This document shows, piece after piece, positions 19,013-27,416 of a stretch of 64,000 bases of DNA (the stretch's first letter is position 1; every line of letters begins with the position of its first letter). Origin of the DNA: Streptomyces violaceusniger Tu 4113 (GTDB lineage Bacteria > Actinomycetota > Actinomycetes > Streptomycetales > Streptomycetaceae); the NCBI RefSeq assembly GCF_000147815.2, contig NC_015957.1:8866001-8930000 (forward strand). The letters are read 5' to 3'. The position numbers and the translations under genes were made by a program. Below the pieces are notes generated by a model, which saw nothing but the letters and a program-made list of their open reading frames with translations, did no database searches and was not told where the DNA came from.

Positions 19013-20893
<1,881 letters not shown>

Positions 20894-20936
20894 TCACTGC
20901 AACGCCGAACTCCGCGGGGAGGGGGTCGGCCTACGA

Positions 20937-20984
20937 CTACAGGCCCTCGCCGCGGCAGCTAAGAAGAAGCAGCCCGAAACGCAT
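20937..20984 (-). CDS. leuL: leucine leader peptide
   Basis: A 15-codon frame, MRFGLLLLSCRGEGL, lies 127 bp upstream of leuA on the same strand, with four consecutive leucine codons (CTG CTT CTT CTT), a fifth Leu just before TAG. CTT is rare in this genome, which would sharpen ribosome stalling when leucyl-tRNA is low. This is the classic arrangement for transcription attenuation of leuA and such leaders have been predicted for Streptomyces. The ribosome site is weak. Confidence 0.85.
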   Translation of the reverse strand: MRFGLLLLSCRGEGL

Positions 20985-21144
20985 GATGCCGAGCAGCCTA
21001 ACCGAGACGCACCGGCGCGGCGGAACCCGTATCACTATGCGGACCGAAACATGGCCTGCGGAGGAATACACATCTTCCACTCGATTTCAGCAATCATGAC
21101 CGCAAGGCGTGACACTCATCTCACACGGTGCGACATTGCCAGCC

Positions 21145-22254
21145 ATGGACGCCAACGCCAATGCCCCCGCGCAGGCCCGCAGTCACCGCCGTGGCACCTT
21201 CTGCACGATCGTGCCGCCGCATGTCCTCGACAAGCTGTCCCATGCCGAGGACGCCTCGCTGGCCGATCTCGCCCGCCGCACCCTGGAGCACGACGCCCTG
21301 CAGCGCACCCGCCGCCGGATCACCACCGTGCGCGGGGTCCCCGCCGCGCGGGCCGCCGCGCCCTCCGACAAGCCCGAGCGCACCGTCTACGACGCCCACC
21401 GCAAGACCTCGCTGCCGGGGAAGAAGGTGCGCGGCGAGGGCGACCAGGCGAGCGGGGACGACTCGGTGAACCGCGCCTACGACGGGCTCGGCGCGACCTT
21501 CGAGCTCTTCCTCAAAGCGTACGGCAGGCGCTCGATCGACGACTCCGGTCTGCCGCTGAACGCGAGCGTCCACTACAGCGAGGACTACAACAACGCCTTC
21601 TGGGACGGCGAGCAGATGGTCTTCGGCGACGGGGACGGCGAGGTCTTCCTGGACTTCACCATCCCGGTCGACGTCATGGCCCACGAGCTCACCCACGGCG
21701 TCACGCAGTACAGCGCCAACCTCGAGTACTTCGGCCAGTCCGGGGCGCTCAACGAGTCGATGTCCGACGTCTTCGGCTCACTGGTCAAGCAGCATGTCCT
21801 CGGCCACAGCGCCGAGCAGGCCGACTGGCTGATCGGCGCGGGGCTGCTGACGGACCGGGTCACCGGAGTGGCCCTGCGCTCGATGAAGGCCCCGGGCACG
21901 GCGTACGACGACGATGTGCTGGGCAAGGACCCGCAGCCGGGCACGATGGACGACTACGTCCGCACCTCACGCGACAACGGCGGCGTCCACATCAACTCCG
22001 GCATCCCCAACCACGCCTTCTACCTCGCCGCCACCGCCCTGGGCGGCAACGCCTGGGAGCGCGCCGGGCAGATCTGGTTCGACGTGCTGACCGGCGGCGA
22101 TCTGGCCTCCGACGCGGAGTTCACCGACTTCGCCCACCTTACGGTGGCCGCGGCGCACGCCCGCTACGGCGAGGGCGAGGAGCAGACGGCGGTGCAGGAG
22201 GCGTGGGCCGGGGTGGGCATCACCGATCTGCGGGCCCGCGTGGGCGCGCGCTAG
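21145..22254 (+). CDS. protealysin-like M4 metallopeptidase
   Basis: This encodes 369 residues from ATG 21145. It has no signal peptide. The short propeptide starts with the P-P-H-V-L motif of protealysin-type precursors (C-T-I-V-P-P-H-V-L-D-K-L). The zinc site is V-M-A-H-E-L-T-H-G-V with the third ligand in G-A-L-N-E-S-M-S-D, and H-I-N-S-G-I-P-N-H-A-F is the C-terminal active-site helix. It probably acts in the cytoplasm or is exported without a Sec signal. It is followed within 27 bp by an emfourin-type inhibitor gene. Confidence 0.93.
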   Translation: MDANANAPAQARSHRRGTFCTIVPPHVLDKLSHAEDASLADLARRTLEHDALQRTRRRITTVRGVPAARAAAPSDKPERTVYDAHRKTSLPGKKVRGEGDQASGDDSVNRAYDGLGATFELFLKAYGRRSIDDSGLPLNASVHYSEDYNNAFWDGEQMVFGDGDGEVFLDFTIPVDVMAHELTHGVTQYSANLEYFGQSGALNESMSDVFGSLVKQHVLGHSAEQADWLIGAGLLTDRVTGVALRSMKAPGTAYDDDVLGKDPQPGTMDDYVRTSRDNGGVHINSGIPNHAFYLAATALGGNAWERAGQIWFDVLTGGDLASDAEFTDFAHLTVAAAHARYGEGEEQTAVQEAWAGVGITDLRARVGAR

Positions 22255-22281
22255 AGCACGCCATCGGGTAGTGATGGAGCC

Positions 22282-22548
22282 ATGCGCATCTCCGTCACCC
22301 GCACCGGCGGTTTCGCCGGAATCGAGCGCCGGGCCGAGCTGGACACCACCGGCCGGCCCGACGCCAGGCATCTGGACGCCCTGGCCCACCAGGCCGTCGA
22401 GACCGGCCACATCACGGCCGCCCGCGGCGTCCCCGACGGCTTTCAGTACGAGATCACCGTCGACGGCCGCACCATCCACGCCGCGGACCCCCATCTGAGC
22501 GACGCCCAGCGGGAACTGATCCGCACGGTGCTGAAGGAAGGCGCGTAG
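22282..22548 (+). CDS. emfourin-like protealysin inhibitor
   Basis: This encodes 88 residues from ATG 22282. It begins M-R-I-S-V-T-R-T-G-G-F-A-G-I-E-R-R-A-E-L-D-T and contains P-D-G-F-Q-Y-E-I-T-V-D-G-R, which fits the emfourin family, the small proteins that inhibit protealysin-like M4 peptidases and are encoded next to them. The pair therefore forms a self-contained protease/inhibitor module. Assignment rests on sequence pattern plus the diagnostic neighbour. Confidence 0.88.
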   Translation: MRISVTRTGGFAGIERRAELDTTGRPDARHLDALAHQAVETGHITAARGVPDGFQYEITVDGRTIHAADPHLSDAQRELIRTVLKEGA

Positions 22549-22600
22549 GGACGCTCAACGGGGGCTCAGAACCCCCGTCTCCGCAACCGCGTGGGCCGGG

Positions 22601-22703
22601 GCTCAGAACCCCAGCTTCCGCAGTTGCTTCGGGTCGCGCTGCCAATCCTTGGCGACCTTCACATGAAGGTCGAGAAAGACCGGCGTGCCCAGCAGGGCCT
22701 CGA
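22601..22703 (-). repeat. displaced duplicate of the era 3' end
   Basis: 103 bp matches 22798-22900 in the same orientation, 97 of 103 identical, and includes the stop codon plus 33 codons of era. All six differences fall at third codon positions and are synonymous. Upstream and downstream of it the similarity stops abruptly. A shorter, poorer match (ggctcagaacccc plus following bases) lies at 22563-22590. Confidence 0.92.
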
Positions 22704-22799
22704 GCCCCCTCCCTCTGCCGCCCTCGCACCGCTCGGCCCCAGGGGCCTCCCGGGCTTCGCACGGCCGCGCCGGCCTCCGACCGGCAGTGAGAGCCAGGC

Positions 22800-23756
22800 T
22801 CAGAACCCCAGCTTCCGTAGCTGCTTCGGGTCACGCTGCCAATCCTTGGCGACCTTCACATGAAGGTCGAGAAAGACCGGCGTACCGAGTAGGGCCTCGA
22901 TGTGCTTGCGGGACTTGGTGCCGACCTCCTTGAGGCGGCGTCCCTTGGGGCCGATGATGATGCCCTTCTGGCTGGGCCGCTCGATGTAGAGGTTGGCGTG
23001 GATGTCGAGGAGCGGCCGGTCCGCGGGGCGGTCCTCGCGGGGCAGCATCTCCTCCACGACCACCGCGATGGAGTGCGGCAGTTCGTCCCGTACGCCCTCC
23101 AGCGCGGCCTCCCGGATCAGCTCGGCCACCATGACCTGCTCGGGCTCATCGGTAAGGTCGCCCTCGGGGTAGAGCGTCGGGCCCTCGGGCAGCAGCGGGA
23201 CCAGCAGATCCGCCAGCAGGCCCACCTGCTTGTCGCCGACAGCCGACACCGGGACGATCTCGGCCCATTCGAAGCCCAGCTCCGTGCCGAGCCGGTCGAT
23301 GGCGATCAATTGCTCGGCGAGCTGCTTGGACTCGACCAGATCGGTCTTGGTGACGATCGCGATCTTGGGGGTCTTCTTGATCCCCGCCAGCTCGGTGGCG
23401 ATATAGCGGTCGCCGGGGCCCAGCTTCTGGTCGGCGGGCAGGCAGAAGCCGATGACGTCGACCTCGGCCCAGGTGGTGCGCACGACATCGTTGAGCCGCT
23501 CGCCGAGCAGGGTGCGCGGCTTGTGCAGACCGGGGGTGTCGACGAGCACGAGCTGGGCGTCGGGGCGGTGCACGATGCCGCGGACGGTGTGGCGCGTGGT
23601 CTGCGGGCGGTTCGAGGTGATCGCGACCTTCGTCCCCACCAGCGCATTGGTCAGGGTCGACTTGCCCGCGTTGGGGCGGCCGACGAAGCAGGCGAAGCCC
23701 GAGCGGTGCGGGGTCTCCCGCTGCTCGGTCGGGGACGGGGGGGTACCGGCAGTCAT
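22800..23756 (-). CDS. era: GTPase Era
   Basis: This encodes 318 residues from ATG 23756. Era binds 16S rRNA precursor and couples ribosome assembly to growth. G1 is G-R-P-N-A-G-K-S-T, G3 is D-T-P-G-L-H-K-P, G4 is T-K-T-D; the C-terminal KH domain has I-I-I-G-P-K-G-R-R-L-K-E-V-G and ends K-Q-L-R-K-L-G-F. It is separated from the cytidine-deaminase-like gene by a 24-bp tandem repeat. Its last 33 codons use CTA twice and other less preferred codons, whereas the downstream duplicate uses CTG, CGC and GGC. Confidence 0.97.
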   Translation of the reverse strand: MTAGTPPSPTEQRETPHRSGFACFVGRPNAGKSTLTNALVGTKVAITSNRPQTTRHTVRGIVHRPDAQLVLVDTPGLHKPRTLLGERLNDVVRTTWAEVDVIGFCLPADQKLGPGDRYIATELAGIKKTPKIAIVTKTDLVESKQLAEQLIAIDRLGTELGFEWAEIVPVSAVGDKQVGLLADLLVPLLPEGPTLYPEGDLTDEPEQVMVAELIREAALEGVRDELPHSIAVVVEEMLPREDRPADRPLLDIHANLYIERPSQKGIIIGPKGRRLKEVGTKSRKHIEALLGTPVFLDLHVKVAKDWQRDPKQLRKLGF

Positions 23757-23790
23757 GGACCCCATTCTCCCCGATGCCCCGGCCCGCTCG

Positions 23791-23908
23791 GACCAGTCGT
23801 CCCGGGCCTGGTGCGACCAGTCGTCCCGGGCCACGTACGGCCGGTCGTCCCGGGCCACGTACGGCCAGTTGTCCTGGCCCCGTACAGCCAGCCGTCCCGG
23901 CCCCGTAC
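23791..23908 (-). repeat. 24-bp tandem repeat upstream of era
   Basis: Five units of 23-24 bp, each (g/a)(a/g)ccagtcgtcccgggcc-like with a cacgtac or ccgtac end, fill the gap between the cytidine-deaminase-like stop and the era start. The units degrade towards the upstream gene. Confidence 0.88.
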
Positions 23909-23931
23909 GACCGCCGGTGGCGGTGAGTCGG

Positions 23932-24282
23932 TCAGGCAGGCAGCGTGGCCCGCAGGGTGCCGTCGAGGCCCGCCAGCAGCACCGGCGTCCCGGCCCCGCC
24001 GAGGTCCCGGACGGCCGCGCGGTCCTCGTCCGACACGCTCTCCGCCTCGGTCACCACGGCCGCGGCCTCCAGGGACGTGGCACCGCTCGCCACGGCCATG
24101 GCGACGGCGGTCCGCAGGGCGCTCAGCTTCAGCGAGTCGAGGGCCACGGTCCCGGCGACATACGTACGCCCCGTCTCATCGCGTACGGCGGCGCCCTCCA
24201 CCACGGAGTTACGGGCCCGCGCGGAGCGGGCCAGCGTGATGATCTTGCGGTCTTCGGGGTCCAGCTGCGCTGCTTCGCTCAT
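23932..24282 (-). CDS. cytidine deaminase fold protein lacking zinc ligands
   Basis: This encodes 116 residues from ATG 24282. The fold is recognisable: A-A-V-R-D-E-T-G-R-T-Y-V-A-G-T-V aligns with the CDA core, and S-A-L-R-T-A-V-A-M-A-V-A-S-G-A lines up with the active-site helix where real enzymes have C-A-E-R-T-A. The Cys and Glu are replaced by Ser and Leu, and no P-C-x-x-C follows. It is therefore unlikely to deaminate. Conservation beside era in Streptomyces suggests a non-enzymatic role. The gene may share a transcript with era. Confidence 0.85.
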   Translation of the reverse strand: MSEAAQLDPEDRKIITLARSARARNSVVEGAAVRDETGRTYVAGTVALDSLKLSALRTAVAMAVASGATSLEAAAVVTEAESVSDEDRAAVRDLGGAGTPVLLAGLDGTLRATLPA

Positions 24283-24367
24283 GCGGACGAGCATATGCGG
24301 GGCGTTGACCGGCGGTGACGCCGGTGGGGTGGGCGGGGAGCCGGGCCCGCACCCGGGCACACAGCGA

Positions 24368-24403
24368 CCCGCGCCGGGCCGCTGTGCGGCGGCCCGGCGC
24401 GGG
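24368..24403 (-). terminator. terminator of the Ig-repeat gene
   Basis: CCCGCGCCGGGCC (24368-24380) and GGCCCGGCGCGGG (24391-24403) form a perfect 13-bp stem that extends two more pairs, 32 bp past the stop of the Ig-repeat gene. Confidence 0.8.
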
Positions 24404-24434
24404 CGACTTGCGCTGTGCGGGTGTGCTCAGGCCC

Positions 24435-27416
24435 TTACGGGAGGATCGGCGTCGGCTGGAAGGTCAGCGAGGCCGAGCCCGACGACGGGCTCAGGCCCGG
24501 GGCGCCGCCGAAGGAGGCGGTGTAGGTCGAAGCGGTGAGGATGGTCGGCGGGACGGTCACATTGCTGAGCGTCGCCGTGCCGCCGGCGTTGGTGACCGCG
24601 CTGCCCAGCGCGAGCGGGCCCAGCACCGAGTTGGCGACGAAGGTGAGGGTCTGGCCGGGGACCGGGTTGTTCGACGCGTCCCTCAGCGTCGCGCTCAGGG
24701 TCGGGATGATCAGCGTGCCGTTGAACCGCAGCCGGATGGTGGCCGGGGTGGCGGTCACGGTGGTCCCGACCGTCGCCGAGACCACGTTCTGGGTGATCGT
24801 CGGTGAGGTCGAAGGGCCGAAGCAGGTGTCGCCGTTGTAGGTGGCGGTGACCGTGTGCGCTCCGGTGGTGAGGGTGCTGGTGCTGGCCGTCGCCACACCG
24901 GAGGCGTTGAGCGTGCCGGTGAGGGTGGGCCCGCCGCTGATCACGAAGGTGACGGTCCCGGTCGGCGTGCCCGTCGCCGGCGGCACCGGGGTCACGGTGG
25001 CGGTGAAGGTCACGTTCTGGCCGGGCGCGGACGGGTTCGGCGAGGAGGTGAGCGTGGTCGTGGTGCTCGCCTGGCCGACCGTGATGGAACCGGAGGCCGA
25101 CGAGCCCGCGACGCCGGTGTTGCCCCCGTACGTGGCCGTCACCGCGTGGGTGCCCACCGGAATGGCACTGGTCGTCACACACGCCTGGCCGCTGGCGTTG
25201 AGCGTTCCGGTCAAGGTCGGACCGCCCGCGATCACGAACGTCACGGTTCCGGTCGGAGCGCAGGTGCCGGGCACGTTCGTCGTCACCTGCGCGCACAGGG
25301 TCACCGGCTGGCCGCACACCGGAGAGGCGGGCGGGATGGTCAGCGTGGTCGTGGACGCGGCCTGGCCGACGGTGATGGAACCGGAGGCCGACGAGCCCGC
25401 GACGCCCGTGTTGCCCCCGTACGTGGCCGTCACCGCGTGGGTGCCCACCGGAATGGCACTGGTCGTCACACACGCCTGGCCGCTGGCGTTGAGCGTTCCG
25501 GTCAAGGTCGGACCGCCCGCGATCGTGAACGTGACCGTTCCGGTCGGAGCGCAGGTGCTGGGCGCCGCGACCGTCACCTGCGCGCACAGGGTCACCGGCT
25601 GGCCGCACACCGGAGAGGTGGGCAGGAAGCTCAGGGTCGTGGTGGAGACGCCCTGGTTGACCGTGACGGACCCGGTGGTGTTCGACCCGGCGACGCCGGT
25701 GTCGCCGGAGTAGGTGGCCGTCACCGCGTGGGTGCCGACCGGGATGTTGCTGGCCGTCACGCATGCCTGGCCGGTCGCGTCGACCACCCCGGTCAGCGTC
25801 GGACCACCCGCGATGGTGAAGGTGACCGTTCCGGTCGGAACGCAGGTGCCGGGCGGCGTCGTGGTGACCTGGGCGCAGAGGCTGACCGTCTCGCCGCACG
25901 ACGCCGTGCTGGGCGTGATGGTCAGCACGGTCGTCGAGGACGCCTGGTTCACCGTGACGGAGCCGGTCCCTGTCGAGCCCGTGACACCTCCGTCGCCCGC
26001 GTAGGTGGCGGTCACGGTGTGTGCGCCGACCGGGATGGCATTGGTGGTCACGCATGCCTGGCCGCTGGCGTTGAGCGTCCCGGTCAGCGTCGGACCGCCC
26101 GAGACGACGAACGTCACGTTCCCGGTGGGGAGGCATGTGCTCGGTGGCGCGACGGTCACGTTCGCGCAGATGGTCACCAGCTCACCGCAGACGGTCGGGC
26201 TGGGCGAGACGCTCACCGTGGTGGTCGACGTGCCCTGGCCCACGGTGAACGACGCCGAGCCGGTGGAGCTCGCGACACCCGTGTCGCCCGCATACGTGGC
26301 CGTCACGGTGTACGACCCCGCGGTCAGGTCACTGGTGGTGACGCATGCCTGGCCGGTCGCGTCCAGCATGCCCGTGAGAACCGGGCCGCCGGTGATCACG
26401 AAGGTCACCGTGCCCGTAGGCGTACAGGTGCTCGGCGGCGTCACCGTCACCTGGGCGCACAGGGTCACCTCCTCGCCGCAGACCGGAGCGGCCGGGGACA
26501 CCGTGACCGTGGTGGTCGAGGCTCCCTGGCCGACCGTCACCGTTCCGGTGCCGGTCGAGCCCGCGACATTCCCGTTGCCGTTGTAGGTGGCCGTCACGGT
26601 GTGTGTCCCCACCGGGATGTCGGCCGTCACGCACGCCTGGCCACTCGCGTCGAGCGCGGCGACGACGAACGGAACACCGTCGATGGCGAACATCACCGTG
26701 CCCGTCGGGGTACAGGTGCCGGGCGCGACGACCGTCACCTGGGCGCACAGGGTCACCTCCTCACCGCAGACCGGAGCGGCCGGGGACACGGTGAGGGTCG
26801 TGGTCGAGTCCGCCGGGTTGACGGTGAGCGGCGTCAAGGCCGAGTTGGACGCGGCGAAGTTAGTGTCGCCGTTGTAGAACGCGGCGACCTGGTGCGTGCC
26901 CACGCTCAGGGCGGGGACGGTCACGGAGGCGTTCCCGGCTCCGTCGAGGGTCCCGGTCACCGTGGGCCCGTCCGCGCTGACGATGAAGGTGACCGTACCG
27001 GTGGGTGTGCCGGTGCCCGGGGGCACCGCCGCCACATTGGCGGTCAGCGTCACGGTCTCCCCGCAGACGGGCGCGGGCGGCACGAAGGTGACGGTGGTGG
27101 CGGTCGCCGACTGGTTGACCAGTTGGATGGTCGTGCCGGACGAATTGTCCGTGGGATCGGCGATGTTGACGAAGTTCGCCGTGACCTGATGGGGACCGGC
27201 GGTCAGTGGTGTGGAGTCGGTCACGCTGGCCGTGCCCGAGTCGGCCCCGGTTTGAGTGAGCGTTACGGGTCCGATGGTCGGGCCACCGGTGATGGTGAAG
27301 GTCACGTCGCCCCACGGAGGGGTCCCGGCGGTGATGCCGGTGACGGTGGCGGTGTAGGTGACGGTTTGACCGAAGACAGAGGGATTCGGCGTGGAGGTCA
27401 CCACAGTGGTGGACAT
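24435..27416 (-). CDS. giant Ig-like domain repeat protein
   Basis: This encodes 993 residues. Nine Big_3_5-type Ig-like domains of 90-97 residues, each with a P-x-G-T-V-T-F strand and a final H-x-V-T-A-x-Y strand, are followed by one Big_1-like domain. Six central domains (about 3-8) carry four cysteines in fixed places: V-C-G-E, L-C-A-Q-V, G-T-C-x-P-T-G and Q-A-C-V-T. Domains 7 and 8 are nearly identical in DNA. There is no signal peptide, membrane helix or sortase signal, unexpected for a disulfide-rich adhesin-like protein. It sits alone between era and corC clusters, bounded by a terminator and a leader hairpin. Confidence 0.88.
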   Translation of the reverse strand: MSTTVVTSTPNPSVFGQTVTYTATVTGITAGTPPWGDVTFTITGGPTIGPVTLTQTGADSGTASVTDSTPLTAGPHQVTANFVNIADPTDNSSGTTIQLVNQSATATTVTFVPPAPVCGETVTLTANVAAVPPGTGTPTGTVTFIVSADGPTVTGTLDGAGNASVTVPALSVGTHQVAAFYNGDTNFAASNSALTPLTVNPADSTTTLTVSPAAPVCGEEVTLCAQVTVVAPGTCTPTGTVMFAIDGVPFVVAALDASGQACVTADIPVGTHTVTATYNGNGNVAGSTGTGTVTVGQGASTTTVTVSPAAPVCGEEVTLCAQVTVTPPSTCTPTGTVTFVITGGPVLTGMLDATGQACVTTSDLTAGSYTVTATYAGDTGVASSTGSASFTVGQGTSTTTVSVSPSPTVCGELVTICANVTVAPPSTCLPTGNVTFVVSGGPTLTGTLNASGQACVTTNAIPVGAHTVTATYAGDGGVTGSTGTGSVTVNQASSTTVLTITPSTASCGETVSLCAQVTTTPPGTCVPTGTVTFTIAGGPTLTGVVDATGQACVTASNIPVGTHAVTATYSGDTGVAGSNTTGSVTVNQGVSTTTLSFLPTSPVCGQPVTLCAQVTVAAPSTCAPTGTVTFTIAGGPTLTGTLNASGQACVTTSAIPVGTHAVTATYGGNTGVAGSSASGSITVGQAASTTTLTIPPASPVCGQPVTLCAQVTTNVPGTCAPTGTVTFVIAGGPTLTGTLNASGQACVTTSAIPVGTHAVTATYGGNTGVAGSSASGSITVGQASTTTTLTSSPNPSAPGQNVTFTATVTPVPPATGTPTGTVTFVISGGPTLTGTLNASGVATASTSTLTTGAHTVTATYNGDTCFGPSTSPTITQNVVSATVGTTVTATPATIRLRFNGTLIIPTLSATLRDASNNPVPGQTLTFVANSVLGPLALGSAVTNAGGTATLSNVTVPPTILTASTYTASFGGAPGLSPSSGSASLTFQPTPILP
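25069..25650 (-). repeat. near-identical 291-bp domain duplication
   Basis: Positions 25069-25359 and 25360-25650 encode Ig domains 8 and 7 and are almost identical for the first 190 bp of each. The offset is exactly 97 codons. It is a recent duplication or gene conversion within the Ig-repeat gene. Confidence 0.9.

Follow-up and report, generated by a model that had tools for sequence, protein, structure and literature searches.

A short structured element in Streptomyces lies between two copies of the 3′ end of era and recurs with duplicated ends of other genes

Genomic islands and plasmids integrate in the 3′ ends of genes or tRNA genes and restore them, and the short dispersed repeats of bacteria include the MITE, REP, ERIC and MIRU sequences. 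We know of no short bacterial repeat each of whose copies comes with a duplicate of the 3′ end of the gene next to it. In fungal mitochondria, mobile ORF (homing endonuclease) elements carry a foreign C-terminus, as the sections of PMC3630166 that we draw on describe for atp6 in Allomyces and for atp6, atp9, cox2 and nad3 in Glomus; for mitochondrial atp6, the same sections report a native end that differs from that of a close relative only synonymously. Among insertion sequences, IS1549 and IS1634 of the IS1634 family produce long direct repeats of variable length, 8–514 bp, according to the part of PMC2266710 used here.

We focus here on a Streptomyces element that resembles each of these systems in part. 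Like the islands and plasmids that integrate at 3′ ends, it is found with a restored gene end and a displaced end kept at its other side; those, however, carry an integrase and have one target each, whereas the Streptomyces element has no integrase and many unrelated targets. Like MITE, REP, ERIC and MIRU sequences, it is short, noncoding and foldable, and it occurs in few to dozens of copies. With the mitochondrial elements, as those sections of PMC3630166 present them, it would share an insert that brings a gene end fused to the host gene, a native end displaced downstream and a donor from another lineage; unlike them, it is about 90 nt long, noncoding, structured and chromosomal, with no room for an endonuclease ORF and with one core at about 16 genes. 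Long direct repeats of variable length surround the insertion as they do at IS1549 and IS1634, but, set against that part of PMC2266710, the Streptomyces element has no transposase and no visible inverted ends, the differences between its repeats are constrained by coding, and its junction is A^(T)C. What is new is the element family and its duplication of gene ends; the architecture is well supported, and the mechanism given below is a proposal. No description of the element was found in a literature search that left most subscription journals outside and that had to look for an element without a name.

The locus lies in a 64,000-nt stretch of an 11.1-Mb Streptomyces genome (G000:C3:8866001-8930000), the whole of which we call the window. 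The working era gene occupies 22800-23756 on the minus strand and encodes a protein of 318 aa with GTPase and KH domains, its stop codon TGA lying at 22800-22802. The last 101 nt of the gene, stop included (22800-22900, minus strand), have a displaced copy at 22603-22703 on the same strand, in which the complement of the stop is found at 22603-22605. A repeat search reports this as a direct repeat of 104 nt (22600-22703 and 22797-22900) with 94% identity and starts 197 bp apart, far above chance (BLAST E about 2e-42); a GCC that follows the era stop (22797-22799, minus strand) is common to both copies, and similarity stops there. The original prediction, made from the letters of this stretch, had described just such a recurrence; the spacer, which it gave as 94 bp, measures 93 bp (22704-22796) when the 104-nt repeat is taken. 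It had also counted six differences, all synonymous, and the in-frame comparison agrees (6 synonymous, 0 nonsynonymous). From gene to displaced copy, the codon changes are CTA>CTG, CTC>CTG, GGT>GGC, CGT>CGC, CAG>CAA and CTA>CTG, so the displaced copy has the more typical codons, as had been claimed, in five of the changes, whereas the fifth, CAG>CAA, runs the other way, CAA being a rarer codon than CAG.

Read from the working gene, the spacer begins with a left segment, TGGCTCTCACTGC (22784-22796), which is also present in L009, continues with a structured core, P1-P4 (22716-22783; a match of 69.1 bits to our covariance model R1 at G000:C3:8888716-8888783), and ends with a purine-rich right end (22704-22715), whose GGGGGC abuts the displaced tail; all three are on the minus strand. 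Beyond the displaced tail, a weaker era-tail-like match on the minus strand (22563-22595; 76% identity in the repeat search) is probably an older remnant. The genes that follow are ordinary neighbours: an Emfourin-domain gene (22282-22548, plus strand), convergent to era and outside the element, and an M4 metallopeptidase gene (21109-22254, plus strand). Two genes upstream of era, 24435-27416 on the minus strand encodes a 993-aa protein with nine matches to PF16640, a bacterial Ig-like domain.

Comparison of relatives with and without the duplicate, which had been proposed as a check, finds both kinds. L009 and L013, from genomes close to that of the window, share both the 101-nt tail and the spacer with it, and their displaced tails differ from their own working tails at 3 and 5 positions, all synonymous. 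Since two other genomes thus show the same arrangement, an assembly error seems unlikely to lie behind the duplicated tail. L008, on the other hand, with an era protein 99.7% identical, lacks the 197-bp unit and retains, by eye, the 22563-22595 remnant, and would be either an empty site or a deletion product. In a set of 111 era loci, two include under 100 bp of downstream sequence, and at least four places are present twice as identical sequences. A search behind each gene of this set finds 12 distinct places with a displaced tail of 24 bp or longer, two shorter matches (13–15 nt) not being counted; a separate search adds three more genomes (G018, G020 and G035). The displaced tail of the window is as many differences (6) away from L037 as from its own working tail, and 7 differences separate the working tail of the window from L008. 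In the clade of the window, no other working tail in the set is closer to a displaced tail than its own working tail (differences of 6, 3 and 5). A recent duplication within the strain with equal drift, which the original prediction had named as one refutation, is not what the era data look like, though the displaced tails are at least as close to their own working tails as to others.

The 93-bp era spacer is not leftover sequence: it is one copy of a dispersed, noncoding, structured element of about 85–100 nt. Compared with its own genome, the spacer has four further good matches, at a thiolase gene, a plsC-like gene (two in tandem) and a response-regulator gene, in every case behind the gene. 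Beyond the spacers of the thiolase and plsC-like genes lies a repeat of the end of the gene concerned; at the response regulator, the core is present and a duplicate is not detectable. The covariance model gives seven matches at E<=1 in the window genome, one of them weak (0.6), and among them is an additional good match behind obgE with a duplicate of 111 nt. Spacer matches at E<=1e-4 occur in at least 39 of 121 Streptomyces genomes, the window genome included, a lower bound with seven candidates scored per genome. In a class-wide sample of 246 genomes, taken with strict filters and with 20 candidates scored per genome, eight match, again with the window genome among them; all eight are Streptomyces, one of 103 genera, and within the genomes sampled the element is confined to Streptomyces. 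Some genomes are rich in copies: G088 has 34 core matches at E<=1 and 26 at E<=1e-4, and G172 has 18 at E<=1e-4.

The core folds into P1 (5 bp) and, after it, a long hairpin (P2-P3-P4) in which two internal loops of the GA type are conserved. In an alignment of 29 diverse copies, the same one from which the fold was drawn by hand, 93.1% of cells are standard pairs and 12 pairs have changed on both sides; double-changed cells number 58 against 15.8 ± 3.5 in shuffles (0 of 500), and versions of the fold slid along the alignment drop to 30–47% paired. This covariation of the core pairs argues for selection on the folded strand. Rfam has 0 matches at gathering threshold in window positions 20000-26000, and at E<=1 it gives two matches, far below threshold, among 15 loci. 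The right end is purine-rich, typically GCGTCAAGAAGGGG or GGAGGGG, and is followed by T or C and then directly by the displaced gene end; it is constant, and longer 5′ forms of the element occur in some genomes (G088 and G172). In L312 the right end, GCGTCAAAAGGAGTGAGTGCG, is present in about five head-to-tail repeats. Tandem arrays of core plus duplicated end, with a period of about 160–200 bp, are seen in L205, L266, L286 and L217, as expected from recombination between the duplicated ends.

Sixty-six of 123 distinct copies have a flanking direct duplicate, defined as a match at E<=1e-4 beginning no more than 30 nt from the core, and 57 have none. The duplicate contains the end of a long upstream ORF in 52 of the 66, and these 52 represent 27 different C-terminal strings from about 16 genes: era, obgE, an acetyl-CoA acyltransferase (thiolase), a plsC-like acyltransferase, a PhoP-like response regulator, a low-molecular-weight phosphatase, MoaE, UDP-glucose dehydrogenase, methionine aminopeptidase, a class I lysyl-tRNA synthetase-like gene, a FabI-like reductase, a CooC-like ATPase and a PQQ-repeat protein, with three unnamed genes completing the number and with all names besides Era being our own reading of the sequences. 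Most of these targets look like conserved genes. Among the copies without a duplicate, a good part have the right end facing a convergent gene. In 13 of 124 copies (e.g. L313, L139, L224 and L278), a facing ORF of at least 90 codons stops on the element's own TCA or TTA, though L204 at least owes this to chance in GC-rich DNA, as others may; in 13 more of the 124, the facing ORF stops 9–19 nt beyond the core, often at the edge of the element.

The junction between element and displaced tail is sharp and has a base preference. Among the 122 copies examined, 43 have clean sense junctions, and in 37 of these the base of the working gene just before the start of the displaced tail is A (background 0.16, p 9e-24), as it is in the working era of the window, where homology to the displaced copy begins at CACA^TCGAGG with A at −1. 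The preference persists in 22 of 28 junctions after repeats of the same gene end and length are dropped and in 24 of 30 distinct 8-mers; all 30 contain A^C or A^TC no more than three bases away from it, a positional freedom under which some matches are likely to be due to chance. The sharp A^(T)C junction and the constant right end are, taken together, the mark of a targeted joining reaction and not of random recombination. On the other side, similarity stops no more than 8 nt past the stop codon in 28 of the 43 junctions (median 5 nt), as expected of alleles with different origin; it continues for 17–47 nt past the stop in 10 of the 43.

The differences between working and displaced ends are biased towards silent ones. 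Over the 52 duplicates, with the first two codons after the junction skipped, there are 79 synonymous and 32 nonsynonymous differences, a nonsynonymous fraction of 0.288 where 0.584 is expected if the displaced copy decays freely and the working copy changes silently only (p 2.7e-10), copies of one gene across species being non-independent in these counts. Taking one duplicate per C-terminal string gives 59 synonymous and 23 nonsynonymous differences (p 2.4e-8), a safer count, yet one that separates variants of one gene and keeps the most different duplicate per string. With a transition-only expectation derived from the era codons (nonsynonymous 0.478), the p value is 3.6e-5, and a smaller set of 83 copies with no codons skipped gives 75 synonymous and 35 nonsynonymous. 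Fifteen of the 52 duplicates are identical over the compared codons, 20 have silent differences only and 17 have at least one nonsynonymous difference. The coding count left out 14 of the 66 duplicates, which are without a long ORF, and read L004 and L286 in the wrong frame; both are identical, so 0 differences were added. As the nonsynonymous share lies below the expectation from decay, the displaced ends, as a group, acquired much of their difference while they were still working gene ends. That random decay would not spare coding sense had been argued for era in the original prediction, and the argument carries over to 52 duplicates at about 16 genes. In this mostly synonymous divergence (79 against 32), working and displaced C-termini of the Streptomyces pairs are also like those of the mitochondrial elements in the sections of PMC3630166 cited above.

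At era, the tail is also more divergent than the rest of the gene. Between the window and G164, 7 of 101 tail positions differ against 10 of 799 elsewhere (p 0.0014), and between the window and G149, 12 of 101 against 2.1% elsewhere. Among 110 era sequences, tails are on average 2.5–5.5 times as divergent in pairs that differ by 0.1–4% elsewhere, while at 12–15% divergence the ratio of tail to rest is 1.0; one close pair, L015/L017, shows the opposite trend (tail 1.0%, rest 2.5%). The close/distant synonymous ratio in 30-nt windows is 0.61–0.77 in the last 150 nt of era and mostly 0.22–0.52 in the body, with one window at 0.65, for 18 close pairs picked by hand, mostly from the list of the 110-sequence comparison; 25 rule-chosen pairs agree, with 0.50–0.73 in the last 150 nt against 0.09–0.55 in the body. 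Pairs have clades in common and are not independent of one another. A control gene upstream of era (no Pfam match) has a ratio of 0.14–0.59, but 0.85 in its last 30 nt (11 pairs), and so does not serve as a clean negative. The PhoP-like regulator shows no significant excess of tail divergence, and plsC offers one usable pair (p 0.18), comparisons with G149, plus those with G095 at plsC, having been dropped because the wrong stretch was aligned (rest 61–74% different). The era data have the pattern of repeated import of foreign gene ends; import is clear at this gene, and the PhoP-like gene does not reproduce it. Species that lack the element have divergent era tails as well, so import at era does not necessarily depend on it.

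The reading that we consider best, and moderately probable, is that a gene-end copy and the element enter together as a unit at a preferred site, that the native end is pushed downstream and that ends are exchanged between strains. The inserted unit would consist of a copy of the target's C-terminal codons and stop, followed by the left segment, the P1-P4 core and the purine-rich right end, and it would lie where an A^(T)C, its preferred site, occurs in the gene's 3′ coding end. The gene would be kept intact, as the unit would bring, or be paired with, a working gene end, and the native end would become the displaced tail downstream. The unit would spread among strains mainly via homologous exchange in the conserved gene; working and displaced ends would be alleles with separate ancestries, distinguished by silent changes, and recombination between the two tails would yield tandem arrays or delete the element. 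Such a unit would explain why the displaced side has a sharp A^(T)C edge, why similarity breaks off near the stop codon and where the silent differences come from. The data themselves show a repeat family with its fold, a sharp junction with a base preference, a synonymous bias and, at era, an excess of tail divergence; we infer that the working end is the incoming one, and likewise the order of events and the route of transfer. As the displaced tail is not farther from its own working tail than from others, intragenomic gene conversion must be added. Against this reading we count the 15 identical duplicates among the 52, which also fit simple recent duplication, the 10 of 43 junctions with long similarity past the stop, the 57 of 123 copies without a duplicate, the missing tail excess at the PhoP-like regulator, the divergent era tails in species that lack the element, the opposite trend of L015/L017, the rise at the end of the control gene and an enzyme search that came up empty. 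The first of two explanations offered in the original prediction, replacement of the target's 3′ end by an integrating element that was later lost, fits well as to the replacement and fails as to the loss, since the spacer itself is the element. The reading that we consider best combines this explanation, with the element still in place, and part of the second one, DNA from a related strain. A classical integrating element does not fit: 93 bp has no room for an integrase, the window is without a tRNA gene, and none of five neighbouring proteins scanned is an integrase. Going further, and only tentatively, one may picture a protein-free bacterial analogue of the mitochondrial C-terminus swappers, in which a structured RNA or DNA of about 90 nt, served by an enzyme in trans (possibly RNA-guided), would home into housekeeping genes at A^(T)C sites of their 3′ coding ends, put the end that it carries in place of the gene's own and in this way shuffle 3′ ends across the genus.

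Long direct duplicates around a core could also arise by transposition with a long, variable target-site duplication followed by decay and gene conversion, the displaced tail then being the right-hand copy of the target. Such repeats are made by IS1549 and IS1634 (in the part of PMC2266710 used here), and the duplicates that flank the Streptomyces core reach 100% identity over 32, 74 and 106 nt (L204, L208 and L207); L008 may be an empty site, and the similarity that extends 17–47 nt beyond the stop in 10 of 43 junctions also speaks for this route. We nevertheless judge it rather unlikely, given the synonymous bias and the loss of similarity within 8 nt past the stop in 28 of 43 junctions; furthermore, terminal inverted repeats were not seen by eye, and IS1634-family transposases are above the cut-off in none of five genomes, G088 and G172 among them, with weak matches in four of the five. 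The second explanation in the original prediction, DNA from a related strain, is supported for the tail sequence by its synonymous-only differences and by an excess of divergence between close relatives that is limited to the last ~100–150 nt of era. In a version restricted to era, with foreign DNA entering by homology-facilitated illegitimate recombination and with no strict mobile element, it would draw on an era 3′ end that has seemingly been replaced repeatedly across the genus, but the same core and junction preference recur at about 16 genes in many species, which contradicts an event of era alone and leaves this version highly improbable.

Two other proposals start from the element itself. 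The core could be the scaffold of a guide RNA and the gene end that follows it the guide, with a Cas12/TnpB-like protein acting in trans to home into gene ends: the core is structured in an RNA-like manner and has a fixed 3′ end with gene-end sequence directly after it, A^(T)C before the matching site could serve as a TAM, and among the proteins of copy-rich G088 is one of 666 aa whose Cas12f1-like TNB domain scores just above the cut-off. The core closest to that gene is about 5 kb off, however, and the core is present in none of the 20 TnpB-family (PF07282) loci examined with flanks of 1.5 kb, out of 26 matches listed. In 15 of 52 cases the working end would match the guide perfectly, so that an active nuclease would cut its host, and the first 20 nt are not enriched in mismatches (3.7%, then 3.7, 3.6 and 3.4% in the next three bins), which together make a guide RNA improbable. 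Still less can be said for a SINE-like retroposon with a fixed 3′ end, a variable 5′ end and long duplications made by target-primed reverse transcription: it would suit the constant right end, the longer 5′ forms in G088 and G172 and the tandem 3′ repeats in L312, but PF00078 is unmatched in G088, G172, G097 and G149 (RVT_1 is present in two of six genomes, G000 and G164, and absent from these four). With copy-rich genomes that have no reverse transcriptase, the retroposon was rejected.

Several further candidates were set aside. Protective seed mismatches in the working ends were not found, and identity of the element with the right-end RNA of TnpB was rejected, the core being missing from the 20 TnpB loci examined. 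Y1 transposases have 0 matches in G088 and G172 and two each in G000, G097 and G149. As to an attP, the displaced tail has no phage match, and its three matches in a plasmid collection (74–79%) look like ordinary era genes, one being annotated as era. One record filed in that collection, NZ_LT559118.1 (Nonomuraea, 11.85 Mb), is chromosome-like. The gene for the 666-aa protein of G088 (L338:6838-8838) is convergent to an rpoD-like sigma factor gene.

If the reading that we prefer is true, Streptomyces harbours a widespread and apparently undescribed short mobile element that would be harmless in gene ends by virtue of its paired working end, and that would have kept a natural record of how species exchange gene ends. 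It would also help to explain the excess of silent variation at the era 3′ end, which would mislead trees built on that end, and it would imply a targeting enzyme whose preference is simply for A^(T)C.

Other sequences are found in the same position behind era. In L114, a unit that includes 24 nt from the end of era is repeated directly behind the gene, and the type-1 core is absent. In L049, L062, L110 and L116, a 'type 2' spacer (CGCGCGGCGGYAGCCGCAYRTTGATKCAGC or part of it, read by eye) lies between era and displaced tails of 52 to about 150 bp, one of which includes a run of N; the same gene-end architecture may be used by more than one element family.
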